From: Bacteroidales bacterium
GTDB taxonomy: Bacteria; Bacteroidota; Bacteroidia; Bacteroidales; UBA3824
Length of the DNA stretch: 44,074 nt
NCBI GenBank assembly: GCA_017541145.1
Contig: JAFXZT010000098.1
Coordinates: 1-44,074 of the forward strand
Direction: 5' to 3'
Position numbers and translations under genes: made by a program. How positions within the stretch are numbered: the stretch's first letter is position 1; the number at the start of each line of letters is the position of its first letter. Below, one piece after another: positions 3,382-14,773 of the stretch. The notes under the pieces are model-generated. The model was not told the DNA's origin. It ran no database searches and was given only the letters and a program-made list of their open reading frames with translations.

Positions 3382-4305
3382 TTAAAATGGAAACGAAATT
3401 ATTGCCCAAGGCACATAATTCTGTATTTTGTTAACATTGTCTTTTTTTATCAATGTATTGCTTAAATCCATGTATCTCAGGTGTTTGAGCTTGTTGATTT
3501 CTTGTGGTAAATCCGAAATGGGATTGCTTTTAAGAGTAATTTCTTCCAAATTTTTTGACAATCCGATTTCCGGCGGTATCATGATAATTCTGTTGTTGTA
3601 CGCCGAAAAAAGTTTCAAATTTTTAATGCCGCCGATTTCAGTTCCGAGCATCGTGATATTATTTTCGTCAACATATAATTTTTCCAAGTTTTCGAGTTTT
3701 TGTAAATTTTGAGGTAACTCGTTGATAATATTATTGTTAACAATTAATTCATTTAATTTGCTACATTCACAAATGCTTTCCGGAATGCTTTCTATTTGAT
3801 TGTTACTGAAATCAATATATCTGATAATCTTGCAGTTATGAAAATCAGGCATTGATTTCAAATTGTTGTCACGTGCGGAGATTGTATCAAGATTTGTTAA
3901 TTTTGAAATTTCGTAAGGCAGTGTCTCAAATTTGTTGTAATTGATACTCAGTAATTTAAGATTTTTGAGATTTCCGAACGATTTAGGGAGCGATGTCAGT
4001 TGATTTCTGTCAAGATAAATTTTTTGAAGATTCGTAAGTTCTCCAAATTCTTCCGGCAAATTTTCTAACATGTTGCAACTCAGGTTAATAACTTGAAGCT
4101 TTTTTAGTTTTGAGATTTCTTTTGGTAGTGTGTCTAGTCCGTAACTTACCAATTCGAGTTTGTAAACATTATCTGCATCTGATATCGCTTCTTGAAGATT
4201 GATATAAGTCTTTGAGTGTTTGAGTTTTTCATCGTCAAGAAGTTGTTGCGCGTTTATTGAAACGTTTATAAAAATGAGCGATATGAGTATGAAAAATCTT
4301 TTCAT
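3382..4305 (-). CDS. Secreted leucine-rich repeat protein
   Basis: This 307-residue protein has a signal peptide (about residues 1-19, ending INAQ). It carries roughly nine leucine-rich repeats of about 23 residues following the pattern LxxLxxLxLxxNxLxxLPxxI, as in LQVINLSCNMLENLPEEF and LKLLSINYNKFETLPYEI. The repeats should form a solenoid that binds proteins at the cell surface or in the periplasm. There is no C-terminal sorting domain or enzyme domain. It is the first gene of a three-gene minus-strand unit with a TATATTTG promoter core about 20 bases upstream of the ATG. The partner is unknown. Confidence 0.85.
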   Translation of the reverse strand: MKRFFILISLIFINVSINAQQLLDDEKLKHSKTYINLQEAISDADNVYKLELVSYGLDTLPKEISKLKKLQVINLSCNMLENLPEEFGELTNLQKIYLDRNQLTSLPKSFGNLKNLKLLSINYNKFETLPYEISKLTNLDTISARDNNLKSMPDFHNCKIIRYIDFSNNQIESIPESICECSKLNELIVNNNIINELPQNLQKLENLEKLYVDENNITMLGTEIGGIKNLKLFSAYNNRIIMIPPEIGLSKNLEEITLKSNPISDLPQEINKLKHLRYMDLSNTLIKKDNVNKIQNYVPWAIISFPF

Positions 4306-4422: not shown

Positions 4423-7400
4423 TTACTTTACTTCAGTAAGTTTTTCGTTTACATATAGCACTTCAAAATCTTCGTTGAAGTTGCCGATAGCCAAAAGATT
4501 GTTTAAGTTGCTGAGTTTTATTCTCTTAGGCATAAAATTCAATTGCAATTCGTTACCTTTTGCGCCGTTTGTTGTATTGAAAAATCTTAGTTTTCTGTCG
4601 GTAGTCATCACGAGGAAATAATTTGTGTTGCTTACCTCAATTTCCTCAATTTCAGAGTCTAAGGTTTCACTTATTATTTGTTCTGTAGTAAACGGATTGT
4701 AAAGTTCTATTTTACCGTTGTTGTCACCAAAAACAAGTCTTGAACCGTCAGAATTTATCGACATTGATTTTATTTCAACCGTTTCGTCAATTTTTTTGTC
4801 AAATGTTTCTGCCAAAACGTCTATTCTGTAAACTTTTATTCTGTTGAAATAATCTTTTCCGGCGATATATTGCATATCTTTGGAAACTGCCATCAGTTGA
4901 AAATCGCTGATTGCCTTGTTGATAACTTTTGTTTTGGTGTCAACTTTCCATAGACTGAAATTATCTGAAACATATAGGATGTCGCTGTTAAACGGATGGA
5001 AGAATATTTTCTTTATACTTCCTGTGAAGTTTGTAATATCAGCGTGCAAACTAAATGTACTATTTGCAGTATTTAAAATTCTCAGTAATCCGTGACCTCC
5101 AATCGCCATCAGACGGTTGTTGCGGCTAAATGCCATTGCTGCAACTTCGATTTCGTCTTTGTAAGCGATTTCCCAATCCGATGTTCTGTAAATATTCAGA
5201 TTTCTACTTTGGTCGGCAATTGCGGCGTAATCGTCGTTTACGCTGAAAGCAATTTCGTTCACGCCTTCGCGGGCGATTTCGAGGTGCTTGCTTATACAAC
5301 CGTTAAATTCTGAAAGTGAGTTGTATTTTTCGTCTTGTTTTAGTTTGCTAATCAAGATTTTAGCTTTTCCGTTGTCGCAATTTGCCGCTTTTTGCAAAAA
5401 TTCTCTGTAGTTGATGTCATCAGAAAGTTTGTTGTAAATATTTGCTATCGTGAGGAATACGTCGCCCGGATTTGAGATTCCGAATTTTATTGCCTTGTTG
5501 AATTCCTCGATAGCGTTTCTGTGACGTTGCAAAATCAAGTTTGCGATTCCGGCATTGTAGTAAGCATCTGCGTTTGAAGGATTTATCTCGTTTACCATCT
5601 TGCTGTCGGCGATTACTTCCTCAAATTTTCCGAGGTTTCCGTTTGCTGTACTCCTGCGCATGTAAGCGAGCTCAAAACGCGGATCTATTTCAATAATCTT
5701 GTTGCAACATTCCAAAAGATCATTCCATTTTTCAAGTTTATGATATTCAGTCATTTCGCCAACCAAATCAACAAGAGCTTTTTTCTCGTTGGCTTCTTGT
5801 GTTGAGTATACAATTTTACTTTCATTTGACTGATTTTCAGCTGTAACTTGTTGAGTTTCTTTTGTTTGTATAGGTTCTGTTGTTACCATTTCTACTTTTA
5901 TTTGTTCTGAATTTGCTGTTGTTTCCGGCTTTGTTTCTGTTGTAACTTCTTTGTTATCAGTTACTTCTACAGTTGTTTCAAGAGCCGCCGCAAATTGTTG
6001 CGCAAGTAATTCGTTTTGTTGTTCTTCATTGAGTGATGTAATATTTTGATTTTCAGTAATTCCTTCTGTTATTGTATCTTTTTCATTGATGTTTTCAATA
6101 TCTTTAGATTTTGTAACATCTTCATCCTCTTCTACAACGTCTCCAGTTAGTGTTACATCTTCAATATTTTCAACATCTTCTTGATTGTTTTCTGTAACGT
6201 TTTCAGTTTCAGTTACTTCATCAATATTTTCGGGTTCTGTAACTATTTCATTGTTTTCAGTAACGTTTTCAGTTTCAGTAACTTCCTCGATATTTTCGGG
6301 TTCTGTAACTGCTGGATTGTTTTCTGTAACGTTTTCAGTTTTAGTTTCTTCTTCGATATTTTCGGGTTCGGTAACTATTTCATTGTTTACTGTAACGTTT
6401 TCAGTTTCAGTAACTTCCTCGATATTTTCGGGTTCGGTAACTACTTCATTGTTTTCTGTAACGTTTTCAGTTTCAGTAACTTCTTCGATATTTTCGGGTT
6501 TGGTAGATTCGTTTGACTCACTATTTATAATAGTGTCGTTATTTTCTGATGTTTCAGAATTTTCCGGTTCTGAAACTTCTTCGTTTTCTTTTACGATTGA
6601 AAGATCTTGATTGTCAGATTCTTGTTGTGCAAAATCTTCTTTTTTGGTTTCTTCGCTGTAATTTTGATAAAATTTTTCTGCCGCAATTTCTTCTTTTTCT
6701 TCTTGATTATCAGTGATATTTCTGAAATTTCTGTATTCCAAAAATTCATCTTCTGTTTTGTCTTCCGGTTTTGGCGGAAGATATGATTCGCGGTATTTTT
6801 CGGCTTCGAGAGTTTTACATTTTTCTTCGTCCCAAATTTCTATCGGTTGCAAATCTTCGATTCCGTCGTAATTTTTCAAAAATGTATCGTCTTTTATTAT
6901 ATCGTTAATTACTTTTGCGATTACTTTGCAACAACTTTTTGGTGTTTTTACGATTTGTTCTTCGGCAAAACGTATCACTATCCAACCTTGATTTGTAAAA
7001 TAATCGTTGTGTTTATCAGAAGTAAATTCCGGATTTTCGTCGTTTTGGTGTTTTGTTAAATACGTTTTTGGCTGTCGATTGTCAAGCGAATACGGGCTGT
7101 CGATTTCGATGTCGAGATAGAGTTTCCAGTCCGAAATTGCTACTACATAATTCGGATTGTATTTTTCGCCGGTTTTTTCATCTTCCAAACCGTAGTTAAT
7201 CAATACTTTACCGGGAAAATTGTTGATTAACATCCCGTAAAAACATTCAAAATATTTTGGACCTTGCCACGAGATCGGTTTTAATGAGATATTTGTGTAA
7301 AGAAGTACCTTTCTTACTTGGTTAAGTCTATAATCTTCAAGTATTTGTGGGTCATCGTTTTTTGATTTGATATTTCCACATTCGGCAACATCGTCCAAAT

Positions 7401-7740
7401 ATTGTCGCAATTGACACTCAAAACTTTCTTGTTTTCTGAGGTTTTGCGCTTTTTTCAGGCGATTGGTGATTATTTCGTAGATAGCAAATGCAGCAGCCGT
7501 TACCAAAAGTACTGTTATTGAGGCTGTTACCCAAGTAATTGATTCTAAATCTGCAAATTTGTATATAAAAATTGCTATTATTACAACTGCGAGCGATATT
7601 TCTCCAACATATTGAAACTTTCCCATTACCGGTTCTTGTGGTCTTACCGGATGCACTTTCACGGGGACAAAACTTTTTTTGGCTTCTTGAATTTTGCCCG
7701 GAATTAATGTTATCGGAAATGTCGTTAATTCTTTTTTCAT
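4423..7740 (-). CDS. Membrane protein with nuclease-like fold, acidic repeat linker, TPRs and beta-propeller
   Basis: This is a 1105-residue multidomain protein I do not recognise as a named family. It has two predicted membrane helices (about 45-62 and 68-91). A globular region follows at about 105-285, containing LYLDIEID (207-214) and then QGWIVIRFAEEQI (251-263). That spacing recalls the Vsr/DUF559-type PD-(D/E)xK fold, where an acidic strand motif is followed by a Gly-Trp then Arg-Phe strand. The assignment is inference, and no clear catalytic lysine is visible. An acidic Glu/Asn/Thr-rich linker (about 340-640) includes five 22-residue tandem repeats at 413-522. TPR-like helices (about 645-800) lead to a WD40-like propeller (about 815-1100). 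The gene is monocistronic with its own terminator and is divergent from the DraG-like gene. Confidence 0.6.
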   Translation of the reverse strand: MKKELTTFPITLIPGKIQEAKKSFVPVKVHPVRPQEPVMGKFQYVGEISLAVVIIAIFIYKFADLESITWVTASITVLLVTAAAFAIYEIITNRLKKAQNLRKQESFECQLRQYLDDVAECGNIKSKNDDPQILEDYRLNQVRKVLLYTNISLKPISWQGPKYFECFYGMLINNFPGKVLINYGLEDEKTGEKYNPNYVVAISDWKLYLDIEIDSPYSLDNRQPKTYLTKHQNDENPEFTSDKHNDYFTNQGWIVIRFAEEQIVKTPKSCCKVIAKVINDIIKDDTFLKNYDGIEDLQPIEIWDEEKCKTLEAEKYRESYLPPKPEDKTEDEFLEYRNFRNITDNQEEKEEIAAEKFYQNYSEETKKEDFAQQESDNQDLSIVKENEEVSEPENSETSENNDTIINSESNESTKPENIEEVTETENVTENNEVVTEPENIEEVTETENVTVNNEIVTEPENIEEETKTENVTENNPAVTEPENIEEVTETENVTENNEIVTEPENIDEVTETENVTENNQEDVENIEDVTLTGDVVEEDEDVTKSKDIENINEKDTITEGITENQNITSLNEEQQNELLAQQFAAALETTVEVTDNKEVTTETKPETTANSEQIKVEMVTTEPIQTKETQQVTAENQSNESKIVYSTQEANEKKALVDLVGEMTEYHKLEKWNDLLECCNKIIEIDPRFELAYMRRSTANGNLGKFEEVIADSKMVNEINPSNADAYYNAGIANLILQRHRNAIEEFNKAIKFGISNPGDVFLTIANIYNKLSDDINYREFLQKAANCDNGKAKILISKLKQDEKYNSLSEFNGCISKHLEIAREGVNEIAFSVNDDYAAIADQSRNLNIYRTSDWEIAYKDEIEVAAMAFSRNNRLMAIGGHGLLRILNTANSTFSLHADITNFTGSIKKIFFHPFNSDILYVSDNFSLWKVDTKTKVINKAISDFQLMAVSKDMQYIAGKDYFNRIKVYRIDVLAETFDKKIDETVEIKSMSINSDGSRLVFGDNNGKIELYNPFTTEQIISETLDSEIEEIEVSNTNYFLVMTTDRKLRFFNTTNGAKGNELQLNFMPKRIKLSNLNNLLAIGNFNEDFEVLYVNEKLTEVK
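6175..6504 (-). repeat. Five in-frame 66-bp tandem repeats in the acidic linker
   Basis: Residues 413-522 of the membrane propeller protein consist of five copies of a 22-residue unit of the form TEPENIEEVTETENVTENNE plus two hydrophobic residues. Each copy is 66 bp with few substitutions. Copies are precisely in frame, so unequal exchange would change linker length without a frameshift. The unit then degenerates towards residue 560. Confidence 0.9.
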
Positions 7741-8894: not shown

Positions 8895-8987
8895 ATAAAT
8901 TAGTTTGGCATAGAATTTGCTGAGATAAAATTGAAAAGCTAATTCCATATTAAAAACTAAATTTCGGAACTAACAAAAACAATAAAC

Positions 8988-10037
8988 ATGAGAAACAGTT
9001 ACAGCGTTCCAAGCGTGTTCGAACATAATAATTCGAACTTAGCCATGGTCTCACAAGATTTAATCAATGGACTTCGTCTGTATATTGATGATGTTCCATA
9101 CATTGTAGGCAATTTGGCTCTCTCTGAAGGATTATCTCCTCACCGCACAGTAAATGCGGCTCCGAGCGAAGTCGACTATCAGATTTTGTTCCAAACCGCT
9201 TTGTTGCTTGCGTCTTATAAAAACAATCGTCCTCTCGTGGTGACTACAGGTTTCCCTTTCAGTACTTACCAAGTAAATAAAGGTGTGGCTGTAGACCTCT
9301 TGAAACGTACTCACAGAATCGACTTCGACATGTCGTCTTTCACAAACAAGGGACGTACCGAAATGAAAGTTGACGTTGTATCTGTTGAGGTTTTGCCGGA
9401 AATGATGGGTAATATTGTTGCTTTGCGTAAAGGAGAAACCAAAGCTTCGGGCAATTTCTTTGTTATCAGCCTTGGTTATGGTACATGCGAAGCTGTTTTG
9501 AGTACTGAAAACGGTATCGTTCAGCGTACTGCTATCAGTATTCAGGGTTTGCAATATGCTCTTGACTTGTTTATCAAAGATCTCGGTTTGCAGTATAATC
9601 TCGGTTTGAAAAACGAAAAACAAATTGAGCAAGCTTTTATGAATAATTACATCATGCTCAACCGTAGAAAAATCGATATCCTTGATATTCGTAGAAATGT
9701 GCTTAATATGTATTATAAAGATGTAATTTCTCCTAATTTGCGTAGAGTTTTCACCGATGCCGACTTTACAAAAGCTAGCAAGATGTATATCACCGGCGGT
9801 GGTGCTCTTTATATGGAATTGGTTGAGAATTTCTACAAAGAATTTGAAGGTATTTGTAATATCGAGGTTGTTGAAAATCCGCTTACTCTTACTTCTGTGG
9901 GCTATTGCTTGCACTCTGTAGACGTAAACGGCGGCGATGTCAACACAGCTGTCGGTATCGATATAGGTAACTCTAATACTGTTGTTACTCAGTATGAAGA
10001 TGTTAACCTCGAATCAGGAAATTTGAGATTTAAATAG
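8988..10037 (+). CDS. ParM-type actin-like ATPase with apparent circular permutation
   Basis: This 349-residue protein resembles ParM/Alp filament-forming ATPases that segregate DNA or position complexes. The N-terminus begins where a normal ParM is already past its first hairpin: VPSVFEH, then DDVPYIVGNLALSEG (34-48) and LVVTTGFP (83-90). The phosphate-2 region is VISLGYGTCEAV (159-170), with Ser161 where Asp is usual. The adenosine motif is YITGGGALY (267-275), and NPLTLTSVGY (297-306) matches the usual C-terminal end. After it comes AVGIDIGNSNTVV (321-333), which is the phosphate-1 motif normally found at residue 5-15. Joining the C-terminus to the N-terminus restores the standard order. 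No upstream frame supplies a missing N-terminal motif. The gene has its own downstream terminator. Confidence 0.75.
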   Translation: MRNSYSVPSVFEHNNSNLAMVSQDLINGLRLYIDDVPYIVGNLALSEGLSPHRTVNAAPSEVDYQILFQTALLLASYKNNRPLVVTTGFPFSTYQVNKGVAVDLLKRTHRIDFDMSSFTNKGRTEMKVDVVSVEVLPEMMGNIVALRKGETKASGNFFVISLGYGTCEAVLSTENGIVQRTAISIQGLQYALDLFIKDLGLQYNLGLKNEKQIEQAFMNNYIMLNRRKIDILDIRRNVLNMYYKDVISPNLRRVFTDADFTKASKMYITGGGALYMELVENFYKEFEGICNIEVVENPLTLTSVGYCLHSVDVNGGDVNTAVGIDIGNSNTVVTQYEDVNLESGNLRFK

Positions 10038-10066: not shown

Positions 10067-10074
10067 TAAATTTG
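10067..10074 (+). promoter_or_regulatory. -7 box (TAAATTTG) for the FAD-dependent oxidoreductase gene
   Basis: TAAATTTG followed by C matches the TAnnTTTG consensus. It lies directly before the terminator hairpin of the actin gene, so transcription of the next gene would start within or just before that hairpin. No clear TTTG box is visible at 19 bases. Confidence 0.4.
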
Positions 10075-10114
10075 CACGTTGCATGAAGTGATTTTATGCA
10101 ACGTGTTTTTTTTT
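10075..10114 (+). terminator. Rho-independent terminator after the actin-like gene
   Basis: A perfect 10-bp stem, CACGTTGCAT (10075-10084) with ATGCAACGTG (10096-10105), has an 11-base loop and nine consecutive Ts after it. It isolates the DraG-like/actin pair from the downstream oxidoreductase. Confidence 0.88.
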
Positions 10115-11751: not shown

Positions 11752-12354
11752 ATGTCATCAGACAAACAAATTTGGAAACCGGGAACGATGCTCAATCCGG
11801 TTCCTGTTGTGATGGTGAGTTGCGGTACATTTGGTATTAAGTCAAACATCATTACAGTAGCATGGACAGGTACAATTTGTACCAAGCCGCCCATGGTTTC
11901 CATTTCCGTAAGAAAAGAAAGATTTTCGTATGATTTAATTCGGAACACGGGCAAATTTGTTATCAATTTGGTTTCCAAAGAGTTGGTACGAGCTGCCGAT
12001 TGGTGCGGTTGTCGCTCTGGACGTAATTTTGATAAGTTTGCAGAGATGAAACTTACAGCCAAAAAAGCTGAAACTTCTGATTGTCCGGTTATTTCAGAAA
12101 GTCCTGTAAATATAGAATGCTCGGTGGTAAATGTTTTGGAACTTGGCAGTCACGACCTTTTTATTGCAAAAATTGATTCTGTGGATGTTGCTGATTACTT
12201 GATAGATACAGATACCGGCGCATTAAAACTGAAGCGTGCAAATCTTGCAGTTTATTGTCACGGATATTATTACGAAATGGGGCAGGAGCTTGGCAAGTTT
12301 GGATATTCAGTAAAAAAAACTGTAAAATCAATCTCAAAATCATCTAAGAAATGA
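11752..12354 (+). CDS. Flavin reductase-like (FMN-binding split-barrel) protein
   Basis: This 200-residue protein matches the flavin reductase/DIM6-NTAB family, which binds FMN in a split barrel. Visible signatures are the N-terminal PGTMLNPVPVVMVSCG, then the NIITVAWTGTICTKPPMVSISVR segment (about residues 26-48) and GKFVINLVSKELV. Family members reduce flavin with NAD(P)H or act as flavoproteins of unknown reaction. It probably starts a plus-strand operon: its stop overlaps the next start by four bases (ATGA). A one-mismatch -7 box (TATATTCG, 11724-11731) lies 20 bases upstream. Confidence 0.85.
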   Translation: MSSDKQIWKPGTMLNPVPVVMVSCGTFGIKSNIITVAWTGTICTKPPMVSISVRKERFSYDLIRNTGKFVINLVSKELVRAADWCGCRSGRNFDKFAEMKLTAKKAETSDCPVISESPVNIECSVVNVLELGSHDLFIAKIDSVDVADYLIDTDTGALKLKRANLAVYCHGYYYEMGQELGKFGYSVKKTVKSISKSSKK

Positions 12355-13673
12355 GCTTTTTTTCAAAAATTTTCAACAGAACCAAGAAAGACAATCTCGG
12401 TTATCCGGATGTCAAGTTTGGACGTTTTGCAAAGCCGTCGGAAAATGAGGAACTTTTGGATCTGAAAACTCAAGCTGACGAACTTTTTGAAAGCGGTCAG
12501 TATTTGGATGCTTACGTTACATTTTTCGATTATATGCAGAAACTTGGCGGCCCGGCTGTTTTGTGTGAAATTGATAACGATACCAACGATTTCATTTTCA
12601 AGTTGTTGCAAGGTTCAAAAATTGTTAGCGGAGTGATAAATCAAACTGATATTCTTGTAGAATCCAAAGTAGCAAAATTTTCGGGTGAAAACATCGCCTT
12701 GATGCGCTATTTACTTAGTCAGAATACCAAGTTTGCTTATACAAAATATGCGATTGACGGCGATACAATTTATCTTAGGCAACGTTGTCCGATAAAAGAC
12801 ATGTCACCGCAGTCGTTTTCTGACATGCTTTCTGAGATTGCGATTTGTGCCGACAGTACCGATGAGTATCTCGAAACTGAATTTGCAAATATAATTCCTG
12901 TTGACTACGAAAATATTATTCCGTTGGATTCCAACGAATTAAGAACCAAAATCGAATTTCTTAGAGTTTGGATCAAGGAGAGTTTTGAGTTGATTGAAAA
13001 ATGTAAATTTGAGAAATTCAAACCGTATTTGCTTTTGGCATTGGTGTACAAGATTTTGTACTTAATTTCACCTGAAGGTGCACTTTTGAATCGTTTTCGT
13101 AAAATTTTGTCAATTTATTCTACCTACGATAAGGAAGAAGATAATATGAACGAAGTTTTTTACAAAATGGATAAAGAACTGCACGCAATTGCAGAACTTT
13201 CCGATTCAGAATTGGAAAAATCACTTTACAGAACATACGCTGTTTTTCCGGAACTTGAGTACATGACATTTGCGGAAATGGTTGATTCTGTGGTAGAACT
13301 GTTGCGTTTGCCGTTGAAAGCTGCCGAAGCTAACATGGATGATGAAGTAGTTCCGTTGTGCGAATTTATTGTCGGTTATCATCTTAACCTTCACGGAATG
13401 CCTGATGCCGCCAGCGAATTGCTTTTAATATTTTGGCGCACGCTAAATTCCGAATATTTTTATGGAATCGGTTTTACTGATACATTTTATAATGAGACTG
13501 TTCAGCAGTTGGCACAAACAAGAATTGCTCAAGAAATTGAAAGGATAAATGCCAAATATTCAGTTATTTATCCGGGATTTCAGTTTAATCTTCTTGCTGT
13601 TGACATGTCAACATTAGAAGACTTTGCGTATACATTTTTGTTGGAATTTAAGAACTTACAAATACCCGAATAA
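12351..13673 (+). CDS. YbjN/type III chaperone-like domain protein with helical repeats
   Basis: This 440-residue cytoplasmic protein has no signal peptide. An N-terminal helix pair (about 36-66) resembles a TPR. The region at about 80-180 resembles the YbjN/CesT-like fold: strands around KFAYTKYAIDGDTIYLRQRC, then DMSPQSFSDMLSEIAICAD. The C-terminal 240 residues are mostly helical and unrecognised. Its start overlaps the flavin reductase stop (ATGA), and it ends 2 bases before the protease start, so the three are tightly coupled. The next gene also ends in a YbjN-like domain, which suggests a shared complex. The exact function is unknown. Confidence 0.6.
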   Translation: MSFFSKIFNRTKKDNLGYPDVKFGRFAKPSENEELLDLKTQADELFESGQYLDAYVTFFDYMQKLGGPAVLCEIDNDTNDFIFKLLQGSKIVSGVINQTDILVESKVAKFSGENIALMRYLLSQNTKFAYTKYAIDGDTIYLRQRCPIKDMSPQSFSDMLSEIAICADSTDEYLETEFANIIPVDYENIIPLDSNELRTKIEFLRVWIKESFELIEKCKFEKFKPYLLLALVYKILYLISPEGALLNRFRKILSIYSTYDKEEDNMNEVFYKMDKELHAIAELSDSELEKSLYRTYAVFPELEYMTFAEMVDSVVELLRLPLKAAEANMDDEVVPLCEFIVGYHLNLHGMPDAASELLLIFWRTLNSEYFYGIGFTDTFYNETVQQLAQTRIAQEIERINAKYSVIYPGFQFNLLAVDMSTLEDFAYTFLLEFKNLQIPE

Positions 13674-13675
13674 TC

Positions 13676-14773
13676 ATGGCTCAGAATACATCGATAATGG
13701 CAGAAGACGCCATCGTAAGAATATTAACCCCTTGGGGACTTGGAACCGGCTTCCTGTTAGGCGATTACGAATTGATTGTAACCAACCGTCATGTTGTGGA
13801 AGGTTGCCGTCAAGTAGTATTGACATCAGAAAACTTCAAAAAACGTATTGCAAATGTTCTTTACGTGGATCCGTTGCATGATTTGGCGTTTATCGAACCG
13901 CCTGAGGGTGTGGCAATTGGCAGTCTTCAGCTCGCTTTTGAAGGTTACGAAGTAAAAGACGGCGACCCTATTTTGGCAGTCGGACATCCGCTGGGTTTGA
14001 AATATTCAAATACCAAAGGTATCGTTTCCAAAGCCTCTCGCCGTTTCAACGGTTTGGAATATATTCAGACCGATGCAGCGATTAATCCCGGAAATTCCGG
14101 CGGCCCGCTTATTACGAGTGACGGACTTGTGATTGGTGTAAATACTTTCATTTTGGCAAACGGTCAAAATCTTGGTTTTGCGCTCAATTATTCGTACCTC
14201 AGACAATCGCTCGAGCAGTTTAAAGCATTGAAAACCGGCTATGCAGTACGTTGTAATTCATGTACAAATATTGTTACAGAAAGTACACTTCAAAATGGAT
14301 ATTGTCCGTATTGCGGTGCAAAAATGAATAGCGAAGATTTTGAAGGTAAACTTTATATTCCGGGTGCTACAAGTAAAAAAGTAGAGGAAATTATTGCAAA
14401 GATGGGCTACAATTTGGAACTTGTACGAGACGGCAAAGATTCGTGGTCAATTGAAGACGACGACCTTGTTTTTAATATTTCGTACCGTCCTGAAAGCAAT
14501 TACATTTACGCAGTTTGCCTGCTTTGTAAACTTCCGACCGAGAATATTGCCCGCGTTTACGATTTGTTGTTGCGAACCAATTATAAATTTCCGCGTATTG
14601 CTTTTGCTGTAGAAAAAGGTTATGTCGAGATGACAACATCTTGTATCAAAGATGTTGATTTTCATTCAGATACGGCTTATGATTTGTTCAGTTTGTTTGT
14701 TCGTAGTTGTCACCGTTACCGCAACATCCTGATAGAGCGTTATTATTGTCAACCAGCAGAAAACGATGATTAA
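13676..14773 (+). CDS. Cytoplasmic trypsin-like serine protease with zinc ribbon and YbjN-like C-terminus
   Basis: This 365-residue protein begins with an HtrA/trypsin-like protease domain (about 10-185). The full catalytic triad is visible: His39 in TNRHVV, Asp69 in HDLAFIE and Ser141 in NPGNSGGPL. There is no signal peptide, membrane helix or PDZ domain, unlike periplasmic DegP/DegQ, so it should act in the cytoplasm. A zinc ribbon follows, with C193xxC196 and C210xxC213. A C-terminal domain (about 230-355) resembles the YbjN/type III chaperone fold, as in the upstream gene. It sits 2 bases after that gene and overlaps the next by 8 bases, indicating a coupled operon. The substrate is unknown; a regulated protease with a built-in sensor or adaptor is my inference. 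Confidence 0.8.
   Translation: MAQNTSIMAEDAIVRILTPWGLGTGFLLGDYELIVTNRHVVEGCRQVVLTSENFKKRIANVLYVDPLHDLAFIEPPEGVAIGSLQLAFEGYEVKDGDPILAVGHPLGLKYSNTKGIVSKASRRFNGLEYIQTDAAINPGNSGGPLITSDGLVIGVNTFILANGQNLGFALNYSYLRQSLEQFKALKTGYAVRCNSCTNIVTESTLQNGYCPYCGAKMNSEDFEGKLYIPGATSKKVEEIIAKMGYNLELVRDGKDSWSIEDDDLVFNISYRPESNYIYAVCLLCKLPTENIARVYDLLLRTNYKFPRIAFAVEKGYVEMTTSCIKDVDFHSDTAYDLFSLFVRSCHRYRNILIERYYCQPAENDD

Follow-up and report, generated by a model that had tools for sequence, protein, structure and literature searches.

To our knowledge, the filament-forming actins described to date share one topology. In ParM/Alp proteins the hairpin that carries the phosphate-1 (P1) motif lies at the N-terminus, and MreB likewise has P1 at its N-terminus. 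Asp12 of Spiroplasma MreB5, which we cite for this N-terminal P1, holds the Mg coordination sphere together with Asp156 and Glu134 (PMC9195046). A chromosomal ParM-like actin, the genome-encoded Dh-cParM1 (PDB 8x1i), is described in PMC12270681 together with a companion protein, Cb-cParM, that has a ParR partner; the terms 'permut', 'bacteroid' and 'bactofilin' do not occur in the main text of that paper. In the passages considered from PMC10945521 and PMC12448750, bactofilins are tied to M23 peptidases and to membrane binding and no actin partner of bactofilin is named; where actin is mentioned in those of PMC10945521, it is as MreB or in a general sense.

Here, we analysed a 44,074-nucleotide stretch of a Bacteroidales genome (contig JAFXZT010000098.1; hereafter the window), which contains a gene for an actin-like protein. 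On the best reading of its sequence, the protein belongs to the actin superfamily, with the ParM/Alp proteins (PF17989 ALP_N, phrog_691) as its nearest relatives, and is a natural circular permutant. The family to which it belongs shares with ParM/Alp an ALP_N match above the cut-off, a presumed catalytic Glu, the GGG of the adenosine motif and a similar length, but its P1 hairpin follows the core and does not open the protein, its phosphate-2 Asp is replaced, no member was found on a plasmid, and its gene often stands beside a bactofilin gene. Like Dh-cParM1, the top match of the family profile among solved structures (E 0.001), it is a chromosomal ParM-like actin. With MreB it shares the actin fold, giving weak profile matches around the GGG that stay below the cut-off, whereas the phosphate-2 Asp present in MreB (Asp156; PMC9195046) is replaced. 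A search of the literature, which left out preprints and most subscription journals, returned neither a permuted actin nor an actin-bactofilin operon; the actin superfamily is already known, and as far as the literature searched goes the permuted topology and the pairing with bactofilin are undescribed.

Position of the P1 hairpin and the rotation test

The actin ORF runs from 8988 to 10037 on the plus strand, starts with ATG and encodes 349 residues, of which residues 321-333 form the P1 motif AVGIDIGNSNTVV (9948..9986, +), as located by the ORF, the rotation test and the alignment. The Pfam profile ALP_N matched residues 4-141 with 49.7 bits (curated cut-off 26.3), and this match covered profile positions 18-148 of 148. 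Profile positions 1-17 were absent from the N-terminus, which opens with a putative strand, SVPSVFE (residues 6-12; 9003..9023, +), whose equivalent in normal ParM/Alp proteins comes after the P1 hairpin. A second P1 near the N-terminus was not found in the sequence, and upstream of the ATG the frame is open for only 9 codons, which hold no other P1 motif. The core continues with E138 (9399..9401, +), the presumed catalytic Glu, which from its context would be equivalent to that of ParM and MreB, with the predicted phosphate-2 loop VISLGYGT (residues 159-166; 9462..9485, +), and with the GGG of the adenosine motif (residues 270-272; 9795..9803, +). A linker, residues 311-320 (9918..9947, +), delimited from spacer lengths in 58 sequences, joins the old C-terminus to the P1 hairpin. 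Other profiles contributed little: the window protein alone had no solved-structure match at E up to 10 and no phrog_691 match in native or rotated order, MreB_Mbl was not among its matches at E up to 1, and MreB-like_C (20.7 bits, cut-off 27.8) and the MreB profile NF010539 (16.7 bits, cut-off 293) were below their thresholds.

For the rotation test, the C-terminal 30 residues were moved to the front in silico, and the rotated protein with the moved tail shuffled served as the control. Against ALP_N, the window protein scored 49.7 bits in native order (18-148), 55.4 bits when rotated (1-148) and 47.3 bits with the shuffled tail (17-148). The corresponding values for the family member L106 were 50.1 (17-148), 61.3 (1-148) and 52.7 bits (6-148), and L095 rose from 53.5 (18-148) to 62.2 bits (1-148), giving gains on rotation of 5.7 bits for the window protein, 11.2 for L106 and 8.7 for L095, with both shuffled-tail controls (window and L106) under the rotated form. 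Against phrog_691, a 'partition protein' profile of 329 positions, L106 scored 89.6 bits in native order (27-309), 105.4 rotated (6-309) and 93.8 shuffled, and L095 scored 78.0 (27-319), 84.4 (6-319) and 77.9 bits, respectively. Since the shuffled tail of L106 outscored its native form by 2.6 bits with ALP_N and by 4.2 bits with phrog_691, only the excess over the shuffled control was taken as the specific gain. Native and rotated forms were indistinguishable when the family profile was compared with eight distant normal-order ParMs (135.2 versus 135.0 summed bits), so that the test rests on the closer profiles, ALP_N and phrog_691, which did tell the two orders apart. ALP_N matched 15 of 15 members of alignment A2 at E up to 0.1, and was not listed at E up to 0.01 for the long-tailed members L087 and L049 scanned whole.

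These results bear on an earlier note on this DNA. Its placement of P1 at residues 321-333 of 349 was borne out by reading the ORF, and its statement that the N-terminus begins with the strand that normally follows P1 fits the start of the ALP_N match at position 18. The sequence also agrees with its description of the remaining fold as being in normal order, only the P1 hairpin having moved behind the core, and its expectation that rejoining the termini would rebuild a canonical protein is matched by the rotated form, which aligns with ALP_N from end to end.

Conservation of the permuted order in Bacteroidota

A search of 59 relatives gave matches in 15, of which 13, all in the genus of the window, were full length. 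Within this genus, the full-length gene is carried by 13 of 18 genomes (the window's included) with 76-100% identity and in the permuted order; the five genomes without a match are draft assemblies with listed completeness of 61-96%. An order-wide search matched 22 of 393 genomes, and P1 lay behind the core in all 18 loci (16 genomes) read in genera other than the window's. A relative is encoded by 153 stretches of named genomes; in the best 80 of the 153 P1 always follows the core (76 called by pattern; L067, L083, L089 and L092 on visual inspection), and the frame ahead of the chosen start stays open for no more than 33 codons. One of the two patterns used to retrieve these 80 loci was the P1 motif, a bias towards the presence of P1 and not towards its place. 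A query without P1, and thereby without this retrieval bias, matched 24 of 395 genomes of the phylum at 26 places; with the window and the contig-edge fragment L140 set aside, 24 of 24 loci were permuted (21 by pattern; L133, L134 and L136 by eye). No normal-order member of the family was present among the loci read. The normal-order ParM noted in a Bacteroidota genome (G602) is a distant one, and phrog_691 matches, found in all 247 genomes among the matches listed, were mostly short stretches taken for other actin-fold proteins, so that a sister of normal order may exist in the phylum.

The tree of the family includes Roseivirgaceae, Cyclobacteriaceae, Sphingobacteriaceae, Chitinophagaceae, Odoribacteraceae and Porphyromonadaceae, and the window's genus joins L017-L020 and L052 with support of 100/99. 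In five pairwise comparisons dN was 0.08-0.13, with dS 2.3 in one and saturated, hence not computable, in four; for the 20 codons around P1, dN was 0.02-0.21. The actin gene is under purifying selection. One relative, in a genome listed as 100% complete (G047; L014/L016), is split by a frameshift, which represents either a pseudogene or a sequencing error. Queries with family proteins detected no member on plasmids (four proteins tried) or in phages (three proteins tried), nor did one turn up in viral contigs, so that these searches give no support to a plasmid or phage origin; the sole plasmid match was a normal-order ParM of Persephonella with 26% identity. As far as seen, the family is chromosomal and widespread in Bacteroidota.

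In most members P1 ends the protein. Long tails follow it in L049 (the same gene as L017), L087, L088 and L092, and P1 is therefore better described as lying behind the core than as strictly terminal. Remnants of a tandem duplication, sought by eye in four long tails, were not evident. L087, L088 and L092 form one clade without an adjacent bactofilin; their tails comprise about 90-100 variable residues and end in RLGKFLKTGMW in two and RIHKFLISGTW in the third, which resembles a docking peptide on a flexible linker. The spacer between S310 and G323 measures 11-12 residues in 51 of 58 sequences and 19-32 in the other 7. Variable length at the new joint is a prediction of permutation, and this variation supports it. 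Taken together, the rotation test, the phylum-wide conservation of the order and the variable-length linker at the new joint make the circular permutation proposed in the earlier note a well-supported reading of the sequence, and the check that it had suggested, the motif order in homologs from Bacteroidota, gave the permuted order in every intact locus read.

Active site and neighbouring bactofilin genes

Site conservation was counted in 58 sequences, 57 picked from 122 at an 85% identity cut plus the window. D325 of P1, E138, E168, G270 and G271 were invariant in all 58. Position 161, at the place of the phosphate-2 Asp of actin, holds Ser in the window protein; across the set it is Ser in 55, Gly in 2, Asn in 1 and Asp in none. 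Of 8 normal-order ParMs, 6 gave a pattern match to a phosphate-2 motif with Asp at that place. Mutations of the residues that probably correspond to position 161 have been studied in MreB5, R1 ParM, AlfA and pSK41 ParM: the D156A mutant of Spiroplasma MreB5 was assayed (PMC9195046), the equivalent Asp mutations in R1 ParM and AlfA abolish the ATPase and leave polymerisation intact, and the equivalent mutant of pSK41 ParM forms no filaments (PMC4911067). Since the phosphate-2 Asp is absent, we infer slow or no hydrolysis, a suggestion based on one residue, for which the invariant E168 might compensate. The label 'ParM-type' given in the earlier note holds only at the level of the fold: the phosphate-2 Asp is lost, and no direct repeats like those of parC lie beside the window gene.

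When flanking ORFs were clustered for the best 80 of the 153 named loci, one family was present in 53 of the 80 and the next largest in 14. The recurrent neighbour is a bactofilin: PF04519 matched all 8 proteins scanned, with 56.0-83.7 bits (cut-off 27.9). With a bactofilin profile built from the neighbour proteins found by this clustering, a gene was counted as adjacent when its ORF lay on the strand of the actin gene and no more than 400 bp away. Three of the 122 loci, with less than 600 bp of downstream DNA, were set aside. By this measure 71 of the other 119 loci have a bactofilin next to the actin gene; among 56 non-redundant loci the number is 29, and the remaining 27 have no adjacent bactofilin. 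In L130, L131, L132 and L135 a bactofilin lies 1.0-1.2 kb downstream of the actin gene, and in L095, L097 and L102 one lies on each side of it. Because the bactofilin-positive loci are spread over many branches of the (unrooted) tree, we think that an ancestral actin-bactofilin link has been lost on several occasions. Bactofilin was present in 25 of 26 chosen genomes (G160 had none), so co-occurrence alone is uninformative; each of the 25 has only one to three matches, so that adjacency by chance should be rare, by our estimate roughly one in a thousand. In G080, G272 and G362 the actin-adjacent bactofilin is an extra copy besides another one. We regard the bactofilin link, which the earlier note does not mention, as the best lead to the function of the actin, and a ParR-like partner was set aside because the recurrent neighbour is bactofilin.

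An M23 peptidase gene adjoins the actin gene in both loci scanned for it (L130 and L131), with a TPR protein on the other side in the one scanned for it. The gene order in L131 is M23 peptidase, actin, TPR protein, bactofilin; in L130 an unscanned 375-aa ORF occupies the TPR position, and in L132 the peptidase was not found with one short key. Clustered bactofilin and M23 peptidase genes, as at L131, are also characteristic of the bactofilin-M23 morphogenesis module (PMC10945521), from which L131 differs by the permuted actin as an added component. In the window's genus, adjacent bactofilins were found in 0 of 12 named loci, for some of which the flanking DNA is short, and the only bactofilin match of the window's genome lies on another contig (L175, 4985-5371), behind a carboxylase-like gene. 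Elsewhere, the bactofilin domain upstream of the actin gene in L030 belongs to a longer open frame (537 aa). L122-L124, L141 and L142 belong to one genus, in which two of three genomes matched by the P1-free query carry two divergent permuted actins, and a bactofilin ORF lies within about 0.4 kb of each of these five loci.

Possible functions and the surroundings of the window gene

On balance we favour, as rather likely, a chromosomal, permuted and probably slow-hydrolysing actin that works with bactofilin. The P1 hairpin would fold back in cis into the sheet of domain I and rebuild the nucleotide site, the adenosine motif, the catalytic Glu and the Asp of P1 would together bind ATP or GTP, and the protein would polymerise, the missing phosphate-2 Asp leading to slow or no hydrolysis and hence to stable filaments. 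The permuted actin and bactofilin could then form part of a membrane-bound scaffold for local remodelling of the cell wall, which in some lineages might also include the M23 endopeptidase and the TPR protein. More tentatively, the two proteins may co-assemble, coupling a nucleotide-binding filament to a nucleotide-free polymer, with the new C-terminal tail offered to partners beside the nucleotide site and the loss of the Asp stabilising the scaffold; we consider this possible rather than probable.

The actin fold is also found in proteins that do not form filaments, and the protein could be one of these non-polymerising kinds: an enzyme with an actin fold, or a switch or adaptor for bactofilin that depends on nucleotide. 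The lack of the phosphate-2 Asp in all 58 sequences, the sub-threshold MreB-like_C match and the filament-less Asp mutant of pSK41 ParM (PMC4911067) are consistent with such a protein, but the best matches are ALP_N and the 'partition protein' profile, the neighbouring bactofilin is itself a polymer-forming protein, and ATPase-dead R1 ParM and AlfA still polymerise (PMC4911067), which leaves this as an unlikely though serious alternative. Still less probable, in our judgement, is a ParMRC-like segregation system on the chromosome whose DNA-binding adaptor has escaped recognition. Similarity to ParM and phrog_691, though distant, points in that direction, genome-encoded ParMs with ParR exist (PMC12270681), and bactofilins can act in chromosome organisation (PMC12448750). 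However, the two large neighbours of the window gene encode an ADP-ribosylglycohydrolase-like protein and a FAD-dependent protein, neither of them a ParR, no parC-like direct repeats lie beside the gene, bactofilin is the recurrent neighbour elsewhere, and the searched plasmids yielded no family member.

A different geometry is conceivable, in which the fold of each subunit is completed by the P1 hairpin of the one before it and polymerisation proceeds by strand donation. A hairpin behind a linker of up to 32 residues leaves the geometry open to such swapping, but the spacer of just 11-12 residues in 51 of 58 sequences suits closure in cis, and we give domain swapping little credence. That the order is an artefact of sequencing, assembly or gene model, or the mark of a decayed gene, can practically be dismissed: the frameshifted relative in G047 is of that kind, yet every intact locus read, those of type strains and of genomes in few contigs among them, has the same order, and the gene is under purifying selection.

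Under the favoured reading of a permuted actin paired with bactofilin, a natural, phylum-wide permutation would mean that the actin fold can accommodate a new position of the hairpin bearing its key Asp, and the protein would offer a naturally occurring way to ask which termini and contacts are required for filaments. Through the gene pairing, bactofilin, a long-studied nucleotide-free polymer, gains a candidate nucleotide-binding partner, and the pairing suggests, as a proposal, a two-part cell skeleton. This partnership could be tested in Bacteroidota that are in culture, such as Roseivirga, Sphingobacterium and Dysgonomonas.

In the window, a sigma-54-like -24/-12 site, TGGCATA-N4-TTGC (8906..8920, +), matched by pattern, is a possible promoter of the actin gene, and rpoN is present in the window's genome. 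A looser form of this site was found in 14 of 109 distinct upstream regions compared with about 0.8 expected, 13 of the 14 being from the window's own clade and so not independent. Downstream of the gene, a pattern match revealed a terminator-like hairpin of 15 pairs followed by T8 (10074..10106, +), which suggests a terminator without proving one. Together, the site and the hairpin suggest a single-gene transcript, and the actin gene is probably transcribed alone. Farther from it, the minus strand encodes a leucine-rich-repeat protein (3382-4305) next to the gene for a protein of 1105 aa (4423-7740) that has TPR and WD40-like matches and is repetitive in its middle part. On the plus strand, 12351-14773 encodes a protein that weakly matches TY-Chap1 (T3SS/YbjN chaperone-like) and, after it, a trypsin-like peptidase, behind which there are weak zinc-ribbon and YbjN matches.
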